A stretch of 64,000 nt of DNA. It comes from a bacterium. GTDB lineage: Bacteria; Hinthialibacterota; Hinthialibacteria; Hinthialibacterales; Hinthialibacteraceae. The translations under genes and the position numbers were made by a program. Positions 18,642-48,650 of this stretch are shown here, in pieces. Position 1 is the first letter of the stretch. The number at the start of each line of letters is the position of its first letter. The notes below the pieces were generated by a model, which saw only the letters and a program-made list of their open reading frames with translations, made no database searches and was not told the origin of the DNA. Location of the stretch: the NCBI GenBank assembly GCA_016125385.1, contig WGLV01000019.1:1-64000 (forward strand), read 5' to 3'.

Positions 18642-18957
18642 TCCAGGCAGCGCCTGGGGGCGAGTATTTGGGCTGTACGTGCCAACCGCTCCCGTTGGTC
18701 GCTGAGGTAAGCGCGATTGAGCATCGCAGCCGGAATTTTGGTGCACGAGAACCGTTCACATTGCTTAAACGATACGAAATAGAGAAACGACGGGTTGCAG
18801 GGGCGGGTTTCAAACCTGCCCCTGCGGTAAGATCGCTCAGCGTTTCCTCCCCCAAAGTTCGGGGGAGGCTAAGGAGGGGGTTGTCGATTCCACGCGATGC
18901 ATTAATTTGGAGCTCAACCCCCCTCTAACTCCCCCCCGGTCTTCGGGGGGAGAATGA
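18642..18957 (+). repeat. Composite repeat locus R2 (A-D-C-B)
   Basis: One full unit on the plus strand between rsmG and parS site 2. A starts with the stem CCAGGC-agc-GCCTGG at 18645-18659 and runs to GTTGGTCGCTGAGG. D is at about 18797-18826 (GGGGCGGGTTTCAAACCTGC), C at about 18845-18883 (CCTCCCCCAAAGTTCGGGGG) and B at about 18914-18953 (CTCCCCCCCGGTCTTCGGGG). No gene is seen. Confidence 0.9.
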
Positions 18958-20770: not shown

Positions 20771-21181
20771 GCCGACAGTGTCGGCTGCCGGGTCTTTGGT
20801 CTGTACGGATCAAGCGCTCCCGTTGGTCGCTGAAGCGCGCGGGATGTAAGGGCGGATCTGAAACTCGCCCCCTGCGATGTGGTCGAGCGCTGTTTCCTCC
20901 CCCAAAGTCTGGGGGAGGTTGGGAGGGGGTTGACCGAATTTGCGCGAACGCAGCAATTTGGCGCTCAACCCCCCTCTAACTCCCCTCGGTCTTCGGGGGG
21001 AGAACTGCCAGCGGCAGTGGCGTGTCTTTAGGCGTTGGTTGCTGAGGTAAAATGTGTCGACCGGCGTTTTCCTCCCCCAAGATGGGGGAGGCGAGGAGGG
21101 GGTTGACCGAATTTGCGCGAACGCAGCAATTTGGCGTTCAACCCCCCACTAACTCCCCCCCCGGTCTTCGGGGGGAGAACC
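20771..21181 (+). repeat. Composite repeat locus R3 (A-D-C-B then partial A and C-B)
   Basis: Starts directly after the parB stop codon with the palindrome GCCGACAGTGTCGGC (20771-20785) and module A, then a degraded D, C and B, a partial A, and a second C-B pair. The C-B segments (around TTGACCGAATTTGCGCGAAC, at 20930 and 21103) are near-identical with a 173-bp offset. No gene is seen; the remaining bases to 21303 are AT-rich and probably hold the promoter of the HD-GYP gene. Confidence 0.9.
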
Positions 21182-32159: not shown

Positions 32160-32319
32160 CGGGCCAGACAACAGGCCCGCCCGGTTATCGCTCCCAATAC
32201 TTGAAACCGATTCATCATCCGGGAGGCCGGTTCATTCGCCGATTGTGTGGCTCCATTCGATCCTCGTTTCACCGGGCGCTATAATCAGGAACAAGCAAGT
32301 TCACCCATTGGAGCCGATC

Positions 32320-33042
32320 ATGGATTTCGATGCGTTTGAGACGCTGGTGCGCGCCCGCCGCGCGGTGCGTCATTTCAAGCCCGACCCGCTGCCCGAAGGC
32401 GCGCTGGAGCGGCTGCTCGATCTCGCGCACTGGGCGCCGAGCGGCTATAACCTTCAGCCCACCCATTTCGCCGTGGTCACCGACCCCGCATTAAAAGAGC
32501 GCATGTTGCCCGCCTGCATGGGGCAGAAGCAGATCGTCGAAGCGCCCGCCGTGGTCGTTTTTCTCGGCGACCGCCAGGTGTATCGCGCGAACTTCGAACG
32601 CGTAATTCAGCAGGAAAAAGACGCCGGCGCCATCAATGAACGATACGAAAAAATGCTGCGCGGCATCATCCCGCTGGCGTTCGACAAGGGGCCGGGGGGC
32701 GTTCATTGGTTATGGAAATCGACCGTACTGCCGGTGATGAGCCTGTTTCGTCCCATCCCGAGGCTGCCCGCCGTGAGTGAAGAATACTGGCTGACCAAAC
32801 AGGTGATGCTGTCGGCGATGGTGTTCATGCTGGCGGCTTCGGCGGCGGGGCTGGCCACCGTTCCGATGGAAGGCTTCGACGAGCGCCGCGTGAAAAAGGC
32901 GCTGAACATCCCGCGCCGATTCATCGCGCCGCTGGTCGCGCCGGTGGGCTACGCCGCCGACGGCGAGCTGAAAAAGACCCGGCTGCCCATCGCGGATTGC
33001 GTTCATTACAACACGTGGAACGCCGCCGCCGCGCGATCATGA
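32320..33042 (+). CDS. Nitroreductase family flavoprotein
   Basis: 240 residues from ATG 32320 (MDFDAFETLVRARRAVRHFK), with TTGGAG nine bases upstream; the longer upstream frame is unneeded. FMN-binding N-terminal arginines (RARRAVRHFKPDPL), LLDLAHWAPSGYNLQPTHFAVV and QVMLSAMVFMLAASAAGLATVPMEGFD are typical of the NfsA/NfnB superfamily. Longer loop (about 120-170) with a hydrophobic segment. Reduces nitro- or quinone-type compounds with NAD(P)H; the natural substrate is unknown. Overlaps the following SDR gene (ATGA). Confidence 0.9.
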   Translation: MDFDAFETLVRARRAVRHFKPDPLPEGALERLLDLAHWAPSGYNLQPTHFAVVTDPALKERMLPACMGQKQIVEAPAVVVFLGDRQVYRANFERVIQQEKDAGAINERYEKMLRGIIPLAFDKGPGGVHWLWKSTVLPVMSLFRPIPRLPAVSEEYWLTKQVMLSAMVFMLAASAAGLATVPMEGFDERRVKKALNIPRRFIAPLVAPVGYAADGELKKTRLPIADCVHYNTWNAAAARS

Positions 33043-33764
33043 ACGGCTCAACCTCACCAACCGCTCTCATCACGGGAGGCGCGCGGCGCATTGGCCGCGA
33101 GATCGCGCTGACCCTGGCGCGCGCCGGGTGGAACATCGCGCTGCATTACCACCACTCGCGCGAAGACGCCGAAGACGCCGCGCGCGAGATGGAAGCCATC
33201 GGGATGAAGTGTGAACTGTTTCAGGCGGATCTGGGCCGTCTGGATGAAGCGCTCGCGATGGTTGAACGCGTCTTTGAACGCATGCCCGGCTGCCGCGCGT
33301 TGATCAATAACGCCTCCATCTTCGAACGCGCTGCACTGCTCGAAACCAGCGAAGACCTTTTCGATCGGCATTTCACGCTTAATTTCAAGACGCCGTTTTT
33401 TCTCACGCGCGATTTCGCGCGGCGATGCCGGGAGGGAGAGGTCGTCAACCTGCTCGATACCAAGATCACCCAGAAGCATTCCAACTATTTCGCCTATACG
33501 CTGACCAAGAAAGCGCTGTTTGAGTTTACCCGCATGGCGGCGAAGGAACTCGCCCCGGGAGTGCGCGTCAACGGCGTCTGTCCGGGCCTCATTCTGCCTC
33601 CCCCCGGCGAGGGCGACGCCTACATGGAGCGCATGCAGATCCGCGTCCCGCTTCGCCGCAAGGGCGACCCCGCCGATATCGCGCGCGCGGTGCTGTTTCT
33701 TCTGCAAAACGATTTCATCACCGGCGAATGGATCTTCATCGACGGCGGCGAACACCTCAAATAA
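33039..33764 (+). CDS. Short-chain dehydrogenase, pteridine/dihydromonapterin reductase-like
   Basis: 241 residues from ATG 33039, overlapping the nitroreductase stop (ATGA). Nucleotide motif TALITGGARRIGREIALTLA, the NNAS motif in ALINNASIFERAALL, and the catalytic tetrad with TKITQKHSNYFAYTLTKKAL (Tyr-x3-Lys), then VNGVCPGLILPPPG. The YTLTKKAL context and GGARRIG resemble pteridine reductase and FolM proteins. Likely NADPH-dependent reduction of a pterin-like compound; family assignment beyond SDR is inference. Repeat locus R4 starts directly after the stop codon. Confidence 0.9.
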   Translation: MNGSTSPTALITGGARRIGREIALTLARAGWNIALHYHHSREDAEDAAREMEAIGMKCELFQADLGRLDEALAMVERVFERMPGCRALINNASIFERAALLETSEDLFDRHFTLNFKTPFFLTRDFARRCREGEVVNLLDTKITQKHSNYFAYTLTKKALFEFTRMAAKELAPGVRVNGVCPGLILPPPGEGDAYMERMQIRVPLRRKGDPADIARAVLFLLQNDFITGEWIFIDGGEHLK

Positions 33765-34352
33765 GCCGACAGCGCCCGGCTGACAGTGTCGGCTGCCGAG
33801 TCTTTGGGTTCTGCGGACCAAGCGCGCCCGTTGGGCGGGCAGTGCCCGCCGCCCGGTATTTGGGTTGTACGAGTTTAGCGCGCCCGCTGGTTGCTAAGGC
33901 GATCGGATGGAGAAACGGTTTCTTAATTTTGATTCAACGTAAACGCATGGCACACTCAAACGATTCGGGAAAGAGAAATGGCGTATGGTAGGGGCAGGTT
34001 TGAAACCCGCCCTTATAGTGAGACCGGGCAAGATTTCCTCCCCCAAAGTTTGGGGGAGGTGAAGGAGGGGGTTGTAAGATGAATCGTGAAGGTTGCGCGA
34101 TGCGCTCAACCCCCCTCTAACTCCCCCCGATCTTCGGGGGGAGAACGGCCAGAAGCCGTGGCGAGTCTTTGGACTGTGCGCGTTTAGCGCGCCCGCTGGT
34201 TGCTGAGGCGATCGGATGGAGAAACGGTTTCTTAATTTTGATTCAACGTAAACGCATGGCACACTCAAACGATTCGTGAAAGAGAAACGGCGTATGGTAG
34301 GGGCAGGTTTGAAACCCGCCCTTATGGTGAGACCGGGCAAGATTTCCTCCCC
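33765..34352 (+). repeat. Composite repeat locus R4 (A-A-D-C-B-A-D)
   Basis: Begins at the base after the SDR stop codon. Palindrome heads lie at about 33780 (TGACAGTGTCGG) and at about 33832 (GGCGGGCAGTGCCCGCC), followed by A copies, D, C and B, then A, D and the start of C. Bases 33873-34043 recur at 34182-34352 (171 bp, offset 309 bp, a few differences). The second copy breaks off in module C (CCTCCCC at about 34346). A minus-strand open frame through the array (33894-34454) is a repeat artefact. Confidence 0.92.
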
Positions 34353-34469
34353 GCGTGGATCATGAAAAAAACAGAAAAATATCACAAGCAACGATTTTTC
34401 TGATGACATCGGTGGCGTTTCGTGATTAAGTGATTCAGCAACACTGACATTCACCCGGGAGCGCCGCCC

Positions 34470-34604
34470 GTGTTTGTTCTTACCTACGATCTCATTTTAC
34501 TCTTCATTACGCTTTATTACTTCTCAAAAGCCGTCCGCTCGCTGCAACGGATCGCCGCCGCATTGATCGCGCGCAGGCGAAAACTGGAGAGGGCCAGCCG
34601 ATAA
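34470..34604 (+). CDS. Tiny membrane protein 1 of three (44 residues)
   Basis: A small frame starting at GTG 34470 with GGGAG about a dozen bases upstream. The first half is hydrophobic (VLTYDLILLFITLYYF), followed by an amphipathic basic helix (SKAVRSLQRIAAAL) and a highly basic tail. The stop TAA shares its last A with the ATG of the next gene, showing translational coupling. The membrane helix followed by an S-x-L-(Q/E)-(R/Q)-I-(A/G) helix is repeated in the two genes downstream. Function unknown. Confidence 0.7.
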   Translation: MFVLTYDLILLFITLYYFSKAVRSLQRIAAALIARRRKLERASR

Positions 34605-34882
34605 TGGAGTACTTTCTACTTTTTGACATAATCTCCGGATTGATTATTTCAATCGTTCTCCCACTCTTTATCCTCTATTGGGTCTACGAGTTTTCGGCGG
34701 CGCTCGAACGCATCGCAGACGAGCTGGAGCGCGCCGTCCCGGTCAAAAAGCAAAAGACCTCCCCGGTAAAAAATATCCAGGTTTCCGTTTCGCCTCAGCC
34801 CGCTTCGATCCGGCTCGCCGGGTACAGGCGCGCCCGGCCCCGAAGGCGCGAGTTCGGTTTTCGTCATTGGAGAACGAGATGA
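34604..34882 (+). CDS. Tiny membrane protein 2 of three (92 residues)
   Basis: Starts by a TAATG overlap with the preceding small gene. Residues about 4-30 form one hydrophobic segment (LFDIISGLIISIVLPLFILY), followed by EFSAALERIADELERAV, matching the amphipathic helix of the flanking small proteins. A basic Lys/Arg-rich tail of about 45 residues follows (VKKQKTSPVKN, then RRARPRRREF). Not recognised as a family. The shared layout points to origin by duplication. Function unknown. Confidence 0.72.
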   Translation: MEYFLLFDIISGLIISIVLPLFILYWVYEFSAALERIADELERAVPVKKQKTSPVKNIQVSVSPQPASIRLAGYRRARPRRREFGFRHWRTR

Positions 34883-34957
34883 ATGATTCGCCATGCTTAA
34901 AAAAATGAATAAAACATGGGGGAAAATTCGTCAGGAATAAAAAGGGGGGATTGAATC

Positions 34958-35122
34958 ATGCTGGATTTCTTATTCGGTTTAATTTGCCTTTTACTGTTCA
35001 TTCAACTGTTTTCGAAACTCATCAAAGCGCTCGAACAAATCGGGGCGAATCTCGGCGCCATCGCGCATGCTCTGGAGCGGGGTAACAGCGAGGCGCCGGC
35101 GCAATCCGATCCCGCTGGTTGA
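34958..35122 (+). CDS. Tiny membrane protein 3 of three (54 residues)
   Basis: A small frame starting at ATG 34958 with a strong AAAGGGGGG sequence upstream. Hydrophobic segment about 3-18 (DFLFGLICLLLFIQLF), then SKLIKALEQIGANLGAIAHA, similar to SKAVRSLQRIAAAL in the first small protein, and a short polar tail. Coding is supported by the ribosome-binding site, the shared architecture and the conserved SKx(I/V)(K/R)(A/S)L(E/Q) block. Function unknown. Confidence 0.7.
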   Translation: MLDFLFGLICLLLFIQLFSKLIKALEQIGANLGAIAHALERGNSEAPAQSDPAG

Positions 35123-35177
35123 TGAAAATCCCTCGCCACTGGGCGCATAGACCGGCGGCGGCTTTCAGCCACCACAC

Positions 35178-36911
35178 CTATTCACTTAACAGGGTGGCGG
35201 TGAAGACAAACGCCGCGTTCCAGGGCAGGGTGAACTCGTTAGACGAAAAGCTCTCTTCACTGTCGAGATAGGCGGTGGCGGGCGGCGAGGTGCTGGTAAA
35301 GCGGCTTTTTAACGCGCCGTCGTTGAGAAACTGATTGGGCCCCGCTACCAGAAAGCCCGGCAGCGGCGTCTTGCTTTTGCCCTGAAGCCCCTTCATGCGG
35401 TGGGGGTTCATCGGCGAACGCTGGCCGAAGCCGGTGAGATAACAGATCGAGTTGGGGTTGCGCCCCAGTATGTAATGCAACTGATCGAGCGCCGCCTCGC
35501 GGTACGCCGGCTGAGGGTGAAAGTAATCGGCCATCAGCAGAATCGAGGCGTTTTGCAGCACGGCGGCGTTCGACCCCCAGACGAATTCGCCCTCCTGCAG
35601 GGTGAGCAGAAACCCGTCACGTTCGCTCTCTTCAGAAAGAATGTCGGCCAGCGACAGCAGGTCGCGCCGCGCCTCATTGCCCAGGCCTTCCAGTTCTTCC
35701 CGGTCGTTCTGTAACAACAATGACGCCACCGCCAGCGGCGCCACGTTGCCCCAATACCCCGAGGCGGAAAGCAGGGGCACGCGCTTTTGCGCCAGCGCCG
35801 CGATGACGCCCAGCCAGGCGCGATCGTGCGTGAGGCCGTAGAGTTCGATCGCCGCCCAGAAGCGCTCGTCGCTGTCGTCGGGATCGGTATAGGCCTTGGT
35901 GGCGGCTTCTGGCGGGTTGATAAAGCCCTCGTCGTTGGGGTTGTTCTCCAGCCAGCGCCAGGCTGATAGCGAAGCGGTTTTGCACTGGGCGGCGAAGGTG
36001 GCGTCATAGGGCGAGTAAACCCGCGCCGCTTTGGCTAACACCGCGCTGGTTAACGCGGTGGCGGCGGTCGACGGCGCGAAAAGAAAGCGGTCCTGCTTCT
36101 CGGCCCCCGCGCCCATGTCGGCGGGCGTCAGTTTGTGGTTGACGGCGCCCTCGGCGGTCTGCATGCGCAGCAGCCATTCGAGTTCCCAGCGGGCTTCGTC
36201 GAGAATGTCGGGCGCGCCGTTGTCGCTTTCTGGAATCGACAGCGCGCCGTCGCCGTAGCGGTTGGGGGCGAGTTCATGCAAGGTCAGCAAGACGCCGGCG
36301 GCATAGGCCCCGCTGGGGACGTACTGACCCGGATCGCCGCCGTCCATCCAGCCGCCTTCCAGGTTGCGCGCGGCGGGCGGGTCGGTCCCGCTGGCGGCGG
36401 AAACGGCGGGGCTGGAGGCTTCCGCGCGATGCTCCCACTCAACCACGCGATGCGGCGAAGGCTCGACGGCGCGGCGCAGATAGGCGAAGGCCTTCATCGC
36501 CTGCCGGGCGCCATCGGCGTACGGCGACGCGCCGATGATGAAGCGGGGCGAGTCGCCCAGGCTCGGGACGTGAATCACGAATTCGCCGGTGGCCGAAAAG
36601 GGAGTGAAACGCGCCGCCCACAGGTTGGCGCCGCTGGCGGGGTCGGCGGCCTCGCGCAGCTGTAGAAAGCCCTCAAAACGAGGCTCGCGCGTCTGGGCGT
36701 CAAGCAGGGTGAAAGGCAACGCCACCGGCGACGAAGCCAGCGCGACTTTTTCAGCTGGCGCGGGATACCCCATCTGGTCGACGAAAATCGGCGCGATTTC
36801 GCTTTCCGCCGCGTTCGCCAGCGTCCCAAACCCGCAAACCAGCGCTACAATGACGGCGAGGACGCGCTGTTGCGATCGGTCTCGCGTCTTGCGATCGGCG
36901 TTTGTCTGCAT
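35178..36911 (-). CDS. Secreted glycoside hydrolase family 9 (endoglucanase-like)
   Basis: 577 residues from ATG 36911; an upstream in-frame extension to 37028 lies over the divergent promoter. Signal peptide about 14-33 (VLAVIVALVCGFGTLANA), an Ig-like CelD_N domain (about 40-130; IFVDQMGYPAPAEKVALASS), then a GH9 (alpha/alpha)6 barrel. GGWMDGGDPGQYV (near 188-198) holds the two Asp of the catalytic base motif, although DGGD replaces the usual DAGD. LGRNPNSICYLTGFG and PMNPHRMKG follow, and SSNEFTLPWNAAFVF carries the acid Glu. Likely beta-1,4-glucan cleavage. Divergent from the SH3 protein gene. Confidence 0.9.
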   Translation of the reverse strand: MQTNADRKTRDRSQQRVLAVIVALVCGFGTLANAAESEIAPIFVDQMGYPAPAEKVALASSPVALPFTLLDAQTREPRFEGFLQLREAADPASGANLWAARFTPFSATGEFVIHVPSLGDSPRFIIGASPYADGARQAMKAFAYLRRAVEPSPHRVVEWEHRAEASSPAVSAASGTDPPAARNLEGGWMDGGDPGQYVPSGAYAAGVLLTLHELAPNRYGDGALSIPESDNGAPDILDEARWELEWLLRMQTAEGAVNHKLTPADMGAGAEKQDRFLFAPSTAATALTSAVLAKAARVYSPYDATFAAQCKTASLSAWRWLENNPNDEGFINPPEAATKAYTDPDDSDERFWAAIELYGLTHDRAWLGVIAALAQKRVPLLSASGYWGNVAPLAVASLLLQNDREELEGLGNEARRDLLSLADILSEESERDGFLLTLQEGEFVWGSNAAVLQNASILLMADYFHPQPAYREAALDQLHYILGRNPNSICYLTGFGQRSPMNPHRMKGLQGKSKTPLPGFLVAGPNQFLNDGALKSRFTSTSPPATAYLDSEESFSSNEFTLPWNAAFVFTATLLSE

Positions 36912-37059
36912 TGGCGATATTCGTCCTCCCGCGCGGTCTCCCCGGCGTTGCGAATCCATGATACCATCGTTGTATCTCAATAGGACGGTTGACGGGGAGA
37001 AAAAGGTACGCCCTCTCGCGGACGCCATCCCGGCGTCCGCGCTGGAAAGGATAGGCCCG

Positions 37060-38358
37060 ATGCGAATTCCGAGTCTTCTCTTCTTTGTAATGTTATGCGT
37101 TCTGGCCGCGCCGGGCGCGCTCGCCGATACTCTCCTGCTGCGCAGCGGCGATCAGATCATCGGCTCCATCGCGGGAGAAACCCCTGACGAATACATCGTC
37201 GATATTCCCGGCGAAGTCGTGATTCAGATTCGCGTCAGGCGCGCCGACGTGATTCAGGTGGTTCGCTCGGGCGATGTTTACCCCAGCGCCACCCCTTCTT
37301 CCGCTACGCCCGAAGCCGCGTCGGCGGCGATTGACGCCTCCACGTCGACAACTTCGATTTACCCCACGATTCCCACGCTGCCTCCCGACTCGTTGCAGCC
37401 GGTCGGCGATTCGATCCAGACCGGTGGATTTACCACGCCCGTGACCGCTCCAGCGCAAGCGCAAGCCCCCGATCCTGATGCGGCGCTGCCGTTGTTGCCG
37501 CTGGCGCTGCCTCAAAACAACCTCTACCAGGTCAGCGGAGCGGGCGTTCGTTTCCGTGAAGGCCCCAACCTGACCTTTCCCATCGTCGACACCCTGCCGG
37601 GCCGAACACTGCTGATCGAGATCGAGACGGTCGACGGCTGGATTCACGCCAAAACCACCGAAGGCGTCACGGGGTGGATTCACCCCAATTTCGTGACGCC
37701 GCTGCCGCGCCAGCTGTTCGCCATCACCGGCGACCTGGTCAACGTGCGTGAAGCGCCGGGCGAGGTGTACCGCTCGCTGGGCCGTTTGCGCAAGAACGAC
37801 GTGGTGATTCAGCTTGAAGAACGCCCCGGCTGGCGCCGGATTCTATCCGGCGATTCGCTGGCGGGCTGGGTGAGCGAGGAGTTTCTGCAGCCGCTCGACC
37901 CCCAACAGGCGCAGAACCCGCGCATGGTGGTGATTCAGAACCGCGACGCGGGCTCTCCGGTCGCGGTCAAGCGCCCGATGAACGCCAGTTCGCCCGAGGT
38001 GACCTTCAGCGTGCTCGACGAGCGGCTGGTCATCGGCGGTACGACCAAGCTGATCGTCTTTTTCAACAACCCCAACCAGCTCGCGCAGGCCAGCGAAGCC
38101 TACGGCGGGCCCTCGATCATTCAACGGACCCATCTGGCGTCATCCGTCGAGATGATGAATCGCGGCTTTCCGGAAGAACTGGCGGTGAATTTCATCGGCG
38201 GCGAGATTCTCACCCTGCTGGGCGAGCGCGCCGCGCAGGGGTGGGACTTCAACCTGCTCGCCCCCAACGATCCGGGCGTACGTTATGGATTCATGGTTCA
38301 GCGCGGGCCTTCGCGCGGGACGCTGATTCTGGTCGAGCCGCCCGCCGCCGCGCAGTAG
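37060..38358 (+). CDS. Secreted protein with two bacterial SH3 domains
   Basis: 432 residues from ATG 37060 with GGAAAGG about 10 bases upstream. Signal peptide about 1-23 (LLFFVMLCVLAAPGALA), a short beta segment (LLLRSGDQIIGSIAGETPDE), a Pro/Ala/Ser/Thr linker (about 70-155), two SH3b domains (VSGAGVRFREGPNLTFPIVD to GWIHPNFVTPL, then ITGDLVNVREAPGEVYRSLG to GWVSEEFLQPL) and an unrecognised 130-residue C-terminal domain. SH3b domains of this kind bind cell-wall or glycan ligands. Divergent from the GH9 gene and convergent with the glycosylase gene 12 bases away. Confidence 0.85.
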   Translation: MRIPSLLFFVMLCVLAAPGALADTLLLRSGDQIIGSIAGETPDEYIVDIPGEVVIQIRVRRADVIQVVRSGDVYPSATPSSATPEAASAAIDASTSTTSIYPTIPTLPPDSLQPVGDSIQTGGFTTPVTAPAQAQAPDPDAALPLLPLALPQNNLYQVSGAGVRFREGPNLTFPIVDTLPGRTLLIEIETVDGWIHAKTTEGVTGWIHPNFVTPLPRQLFAITGDLVNVREAPGEVYRSLGRLRKNDVVIQLEERPGWRRILSGDSLAGWVSEEFLQPLDPQQAQNPRMVVIQNRDAGSPVAVKRPMNASSPEVTFSVLDERLVIGGTTKLIVFFNNPNQLAQASEAYGGPSIIQRTHLASSVEMMNRGFPEELAVNFIGGEILTLLGERAAQGWDFNLLAPNDPGVRYGFMVQRGPSRGTLILVEPPAAAQ

Positions 38359-42236: not shown

Positions 42237-42665
42237 TCCTCCCCATCCTGAGGGAGGAAAAATCTGACCGATTCCACCGTTGGTGCGGGTTTGAAACCCG
42301 CTCCTGCAATCAATCTTGTCTCTCTTAATAATACGCTTGATGATGCAAACAAATCTCATTCACCAAAATTCCGGTGACGTATCTCCATCAAATCGCGTCA
42401 GCAACCAACGGGCGCGCTAAACGCGTATAACCCTAATACTGGGCTGCGGGCTGCTGTCCGTTCTCCCCCCGAAGTCCGGGGGGAGTTAGAGGGGGGTTGA
42501 GCGCCTTGCTCGCTCGGGTTTTCCGCCCGATCGATCAACCCCCTCCTTCGCCTCCCCCATCTTGGGGGAGGAAAACGTCGTTCGATCTCAATCGTGTCAG
42601 CAACCAACGGGCGCGCTAAACGCGCACAACCTGAATACCAGGCCGCCTACACTGCCCGCCCAGCG
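42237..42665 (-). repeat. Composite repeat locus R5 between ispA and queE
   Basis: Reads as a minus-strand array: A (at about 42595-42660), then C and B (CTCCCCCC/GGGGGGAG at 42465-42487), A (at about 42395-42460), D (about 42280-42308, GTGCGGGTTTGAAACCCGCT) and a degraded C (42240-42260). It lies between divergent genes, so unlike the other loci it does not begin at a stop codon. The 190 bases from 42666 to 42856 show no gene and no recognisable preQ1 riboswitch before queE. Confidence 0.88.
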
Positions 42666-42856
42666 GGCGTTGCCCGTATTGTAGTGCGGCGTGCGGTGGG
42701 AACAATGTCGGCCGGTTCATTGATCAAAACGCGGTTTGCGGTCATCATCATGGTGAGCGGCGGGCTGATAAATATCACGGAGGGAGCCCGATTTTCACCC
42801 TTGTTTCACCCGGCCGCCGCATTAACAACATCCGCTGTCCGCCGGATCGATCTCAC

Positions 42857-48213: not shown

Positions 48214-48650
48214 CCAGCGGACAGCGCCCGCCGCCCAGTCTTTGGGCTGTGCGTGTTTAGCGCTCCCGCTGGTTGCTGACCGACAGTGTCGGCTGCCGAG
48301 TATTTGGGTTGTACGTACCAATCGCGCCCGCTGGTCGCTGATGCGAGCGGGATGCAGGGGGCGGGATCCAAACCTGCCCCTTACGGTAGGTGCGGTCGAG
48401 CGGAATTTCCTCCTCCAAAGTTTGGGGGAGGCGAAGGAGGGGGTTGTCTGATAAATCACGCAGTCCGCGCAAGGCGCTCAACCCCCCTCTAGTCCCTTCG
48501 GTCTTCGGTGGGAGAATTTAAAGCCAACCCGCTGGACGGACAGTGTCCGCTGCCCAGACTTTGAGCTGTACGAACCAAACGCGCCCGCTGGTTGCTGGCG
48601 GGCAGGGTCGGCTACCGAATTTTCAGGCTGTGCGGTTTCAGCGTTTCTGC
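48214..48650 (+). repeat. Composite repeat locus R6
   Basis: Starts directly at the stop codon of the AAA+ regulator. Order: A, A (palindrome CCGACAGTGTCGG near 48278), D (about 48357-48385), C (about 48408-48442), B (about 48480-48517, with a degraded stem), then two further A copies with heads CGGACAGTGTCCG (about 48537) and GCGGGCAGGGTCGG. It lies between convergent genes. Confidence 0.9.

Follow-up and report, generated by a model that had tools for sequence, protein, structure and literature searches.

We describe here three very short open reading frames, ORF1, ORF2 and ORF3, which lie in a row on the plus strand of the 64,000-nucleotide stretch of DNA analysed (the window), itself a part of contig C9 of a draft genome of 5.5 Mb. 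A 1.4-kb interval separates a nitroreductase/short-chain dehydrogenase pair from a glycoside hydrolase family 9 gene; its first part is occupied by a dispersed intergenic repeat, R4, and its second part by the three small frames. The genes of the locus are as follows.

32317-33764, plus strand: nitroreductase and short-chain dehydrogenase pair
34470-34604, plus strand: ORF1, 44 residues, GTG start; putative membrane helix followed by a basic amphipathic helix (from the sequence and the homology with ORF3)
34604-34882, plus strand: ORF2, 92 residues, ATG start; putative membrane helix, short amphipathic helix and a low-confidence tail, maybe without any folded domain (from the sequence and a helix predicted at residues 2-44)
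34958-35122, plus strand: ORF3, 54 residues; putative membrane helix followed by an amphipathic helix (from the sequence, a helix predicted at residues 2-44 and the homology with ORF1)
35178-36911, minus strand: glycoside hydrolase family 9 gene

An earlier note, made from the DNA letters only, had reported frames of 44, 92 and 54 residues, the first two overlapping as TAATG. This description is exact, the ATG of ORF2 overlapping the stop codon of ORF1, with the precision that ORF1 starts with GTG and not ATG. The note had also proposed a duplicated family, and the comparison of ORF1 with ORF3 clearly supports this idea. The two proteins align without any gap from the start codon to residue 43, with 15 identities. 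The BLOSUM62 score of this alignment is 61, versus a mean of 20 (standard deviation 4.4) for shuffled proteins in which the pattern of hydrophobic and polar residues was preserved, and none of the 2000 shuffles reached it. Chance resemblance between hydrophobic-rich frames, a danger that the note itself had raised, thus does not account for this pair. ORF1 and ORF3 are also reciprocal best matches within the whole genome. The individual E-values are weak (0.14 and 0.06); the match can be considered to go beyond chance because the two sites are only 0.5 kb apart on the same strand, which chance would not explain. Furthermore, 9 of the 14 identical residues that follow the start are encoded by different codons, and DNA similarity is low, the best local match being 14 bp long. 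Identical residues with diverged codons argue for selection at the protein level, and this is the pattern expected if ORF1 and ORF3 derived from an old duplication maintained at that level. Altogether, we conclude that ORF1 and ORF3 are a real small-protein pair, which probably forms a triplet with ORF2.

The position of ORF2 deserves separate consideration. A block beginning with (F/Y)SKx had been attributed to all three proteins. It fits only ORF1 (FSKAVRSLQRIA) and ORF3 (FSKLIKALEQIG); ORF2 reads YEFSAALERIA, does not contain the FSK block and has only the L(E/Q)(R/Q)I(A/G) half in common with the others. The distance between the start of this half and that of a second motif, LER(A/G), is 14 residues in ORF1 and ORF3 and 7 in ORF2, which is therefore one heptad shorter. 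This composite motif, which was picked post hoc, has no other occurrence in 663 kb translated in six frames. When the cytoplasmic helices alone are compared, ORF2 resembles ORF3 (p 0.003) more than ORF1 (p 0.09). Its membership of the family thus appears, from these comparisons, probable but unproven.

The three proteins display no lysine or arginine before the membrane segment and several after it. Since no positive charge precedes the segment while several follow, the positive-inside rule makes an N-out/C-in topology likely, although least so in ORF2, whose segment is followed by acidic residues as well. AlphaFold2 run without alignment, a procedure biased to long helices and silent on association, gave one unbroken helix over residues 2-44 in both ORF2 and ORF3; the confidence score (predicted local distance difference test) is about 92 over residues 1-30 of ORF3, and low in the tail of ORF2. 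The cytoplasmic helix is more amphipathic than its shuffles in ORF2 (p 0.001) and ORF3 (p 0.008), and hydrophobic residues with heptad spacing are found at L25, I28, L32 and L39 in ORF1 and ORF3, and at L34, I37 and L41 in ORF2. For an amphipathic helix with leucines and isoleucines so spaced, the simplest proposal is that the proteins associate, each with its own kind or with one another, as a membrane-anchored coiled coil. We therefore propose, with moderate confidence, that the locus encodes tandem-duplicated, lineage-specific, single-span C-in proteins that associate by a cytoplasmic coiled coil. A tandem duplication would have given rise to a small operon-like cluster, in which a single unbroken helix, about 43 residues long, would form the core of each protein. 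This helix would span the membrane with its N-terminal half, leaving almost nothing outside, and its C-terminal half would extend into the cytoplasm as the amphipathic helix. Through this membrane-anchored coiled coil, the proteins could pair mutually or with a partner membrane protein, and the likeliest kind of role would be that of a scaffold or modulator for an unlinked membrane complex.

Besides the bias of the helix model, several results weigh against this proposal. The amphipathicity of ORF1 is not significant (p 0.09), and the full-length scores of ORF2 are marginal (34 versus a shuffle value of 24 with ORF1, p 0.04; 34 versus 22 with ORF3, p 0.01), ORF2 not being recovered either by genome searches with ORF1, ORF3 or an ORF1/ORF3 profile. 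Synonymous codons give no signal or a negative one in the three frames, and the reverse frame scores equally well for ORF1 and ORF3. Above all, no relative of ORF1, ORF2 or ORF3 was found in the 13 other genomes of the class sample (14 with the source, the next relatives drawn sharing only the domain) and about 370 further genomes, nor in GTDB contigs and viral contigs; ORF3, which alone was searched there, has none in phage or plasmid records. Since proteins of this size easily escape detection and only close relatives are picked up by scanning contigs, more distant homologues may have been missed. Pfam, NCBIfam, PHROGs, PADLOC and PDB gave no match to the small frames. The matches that were obtained with the three proteins and with the ORF1/ORF3 profile are at chance level, and those inspected fall in unrelated longer proteins, in other reading frames or in broken frames. 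The most promising of them, from contig C196 of genome G002 (E 0.0025 to ORF2), is a 162-residue protein with a membrane helix and a coiled coil that adjoins a sigma-factor-like gene, and was judged unrelated.

One could wonder whether ORF1, ORF2 and ORF3 are genes at all: they might be frames open by chance, or the remains of decay, in an intergenic interval that contains repeats. The missing homologues, the codon signal and the reverse frames would agree with this, as would the fact that the interval is missing in relatives and bears dispersed repeats. On the other hand, a protein similarity far above pattern-preserving shuffles, combined with low DNA similarity, identical residues in different codons and matching start points, is hardly what such a history would leave. 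In addition, only 0.5% of the dinucleotide shuffles of the locus yield a plus-strand frame of at least 44 residues that includes a strong membrane segment, and none yields two (ORF2 and ORF3 pass this filter, ORF1 falls just under it), and the DNA of the three frames is single copy in the genome and outside repeats. The three frames also outscore the other two frames of the same strand in coding scores. At third codon positions their G+C content is 0.59-0.65, as against 0.75 in reference genes; the tail of ORF2 (34763-34882) scores as non-coding. We consider it improbable that the three frames are non-genes. The absence of conservation in relatives, which the earlier note had regarded as damaging, is literally what is observed; yet the divergent but similar pair provides internal evidence of coding and selection. 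We infer that ORF1, ORF2 and ORF3 are translated and co-transcribed, and the best reading is that the family is young or fast-evolving.

Genomes of the same family keep the flanking gene blocks on separate contigs and without these frames: the nitroreductase and dehydrogenase are kept in G001, and the dehydrogenase in G005. No similar small membrane frame was found beside the flanking genes in relatives, nor alongside the nearest GTDB relative of the dehydrogenase (L131), and the listed matches between the DNA of the interval and that of relatives all lie within the repeat. Another possibility is that the proteins regulate one specific membrane enzyme as its small subunits, like CydX or AcrZ, and are encoded apart from it. 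Their architecture (short, single span, C-terminal helix) is compatible with such a role; none of their neighbours (nitroreductase, short-chain dehydrogenase, glycoside hydrolase) is a membrane complex, and no co-occurring gene could be identified, as no relatives were found. We regard this possibility as rather unlikely. As for the surrounding genes, two others, one SH3-like and one endonuclease III-like, mostly accompany the glycoside hydrolase 9 of relatives. The pair formed with the divergent SH3-like gene (35178-38358) is found in four genomes of the same family, with the endonuclease III-like gene nearby in three of the four; this is a conserved neighbourhood of functionally unrelated genes.

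Each of the three frames is preceded by a Shine-Dalgarno-like stretch, that of ORF3 being the strongest, in agreement with the earlier note. The signals and possible RNA structures are the following.

34405-34474, plus strand: possible mRNA hairpin enclosing the ribosome-binding site and start codon of ORF1 (-28.8 kcal/mol)
34457-34461, plus strand: GGGAG, Shine-Dalgarno-like, 8 nt 5' of the GTG of ORF1 (from the sequence)
34939-34949, plus strand: purine-rich ribosome-binding site of ORF3 (AAAAAGGGGGGA), about 8 nt 5' of its ATG (from the sequence)
35112-35158, no strand assigned: possible hairpin where ORF3 and the glycoside hydrolase gene converge, a terminator candidate without a T run

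A 15-codon frame (MLKKMNKTWGKIRQE, 34893-34940), possibly due to chance, lies between ORF2 and ORF3 and stops just upstream of the ribosome-binding site of the latter. The region 35110-35190 folds with a z-score of -2.39, and the terminator scan did not report the 35112-35158 hairpin. The hairpin at the start of ORF1 has a z-score of -2.35, with equal stability in 4 of 200 shuffles; it may mask the ribosome-binding site, although this is suggestive only.

Such masking would recall type I toxins, some families of which are known to comprise tandem paralogues. ORF1 to ORF3 would then be tandem-duplicated small hydrophobic proteins, which mRNA structure or an antisense RNA would keep silent and which, once produced, would depolarise the membrane; their patchy distribution would fit as well. 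However, no promoter-like site was detected on either strand (the host promoter type may differ from that of the scan), Rfam and tRNA scans of the locus gave no match, and no toxin family of Pfam, NCBIfam or PHROGs was recognised. Moreover, ORF2 is too long with its 92 residues, and a conserved polar helix with heptad spacing exceeds the needs of pore formation. We thus consider a toxin function unlikely. More generally, none of the functions put forward in the earlier note (membrane-active peptide, enzyme regulator or toxin) receives direct support: the small frames have no conserved membrane-enzyme neighbour and match no family of known small proteins or toxins, and neither a promoter for an antisense transcript nor an RNA of a known type was detected. 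A holin was also thought of and rejected, no phage genes being noticed nearby.

The proximity of R4 had been correctly noted: the repeat (33778-34352), which holds two 188-nt copies (33856-34043 and 34165-34352), stops 117 bp upstream of ORF1. It has 65 matches across the genome, with further copies in the window at the following positions.

2-777; 18646-18954; 20771-21180; 42378-42669; 48217-48596

The R4 copies inspected elsewhere are not accompanied by a similar frame, and the idea that the repeat carries the small frames was discarded. The reverse translation of R4 gives RAGFKPAPT, and none of the papers searched contains the string FKPAPT. Other genera have intergenic-type copies in which a 40-nt core (34107-34146, CCCCTCTAACTCCCCCCGATCTTCGGGGGGAG region) shows 93-98% identity; matches of lesser length extend to another family of the same order.

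To come back to the membrane-anchored coiled-coil proteins that we favour, such proteins would be ordinary in kind and by themselves alter the picture of no known system. A more far-reaching version, which we put forward only tentatively, is that of an undescribed small-protein system in a bacterial lineage of which few genomes have been sampled: a tandem family of single-helix proteins, specific to a genus or species and either of recent origin or in very rapid evolution, whose heptad-patterned cytoplasmic helices would form mixed membrane-anchored bundles. Small membrane proteins are poorly annotated, and a duplicated pair with internal protein-level constraint, for which no outside relatives were found, is well suited as a clean test case for membrane-protein genes confined to one lineage.

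Several parallels can be drawn with known proteins. PspB-like proteins are small, single-span and endowed with a cytoplasmic coiled coil, and share with the present ones the order of a membrane helix at the N-terminus and then a cytoplasmic helix with a heptad pattern; in contrast, the small frames have no Pfam or NCBIfam match, and no other psp-like genes were noticed nearby. A lone small protein with a transmembrane segment and a coiled coil, encoded beside trpS in a genome of the same family (L059, 1483-1701, minus strand), has a similar architecture (transmembrane segment, then IQSLERKLDQIYEMLKS), but it is a single gene in another neighbourhood, and its similarity to ORF2 is at chance level (E 0.53 in the genome search), so that homology is not demonstrable. 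YohP and other small membrane proteins of E. coli (PMC12719787) are likewise tiny, membrane-bound and non-catalytic; YohP, however, with 27 residues, has no room for a long cytoplasmic helix, and no relation of the small frames to named families was detected. Finally, membrane-associated type I toxins have fewer than 60 residues, are hydrophobic, and possess one helical membrane segment and a cationic C-terminus (PMC8309996). ORF1 shows all these traits, while ORF3 fits in size and helix and is near neutral after the membrane segment, and ORF2 exceeds the size. The likeness to Fst/Ldr, Hok, TisB and AapA (PMC8309996) concerns ORF1 and ORF3, with fewer than 60 residues, a hydrophobic helix and a charged C-terminus; unlike these toxins, for which neither a family match nor an antisense RNA or its promoter was detected here, the proteins of the present locus would carry a long cytoplasmic amphipathic helix.
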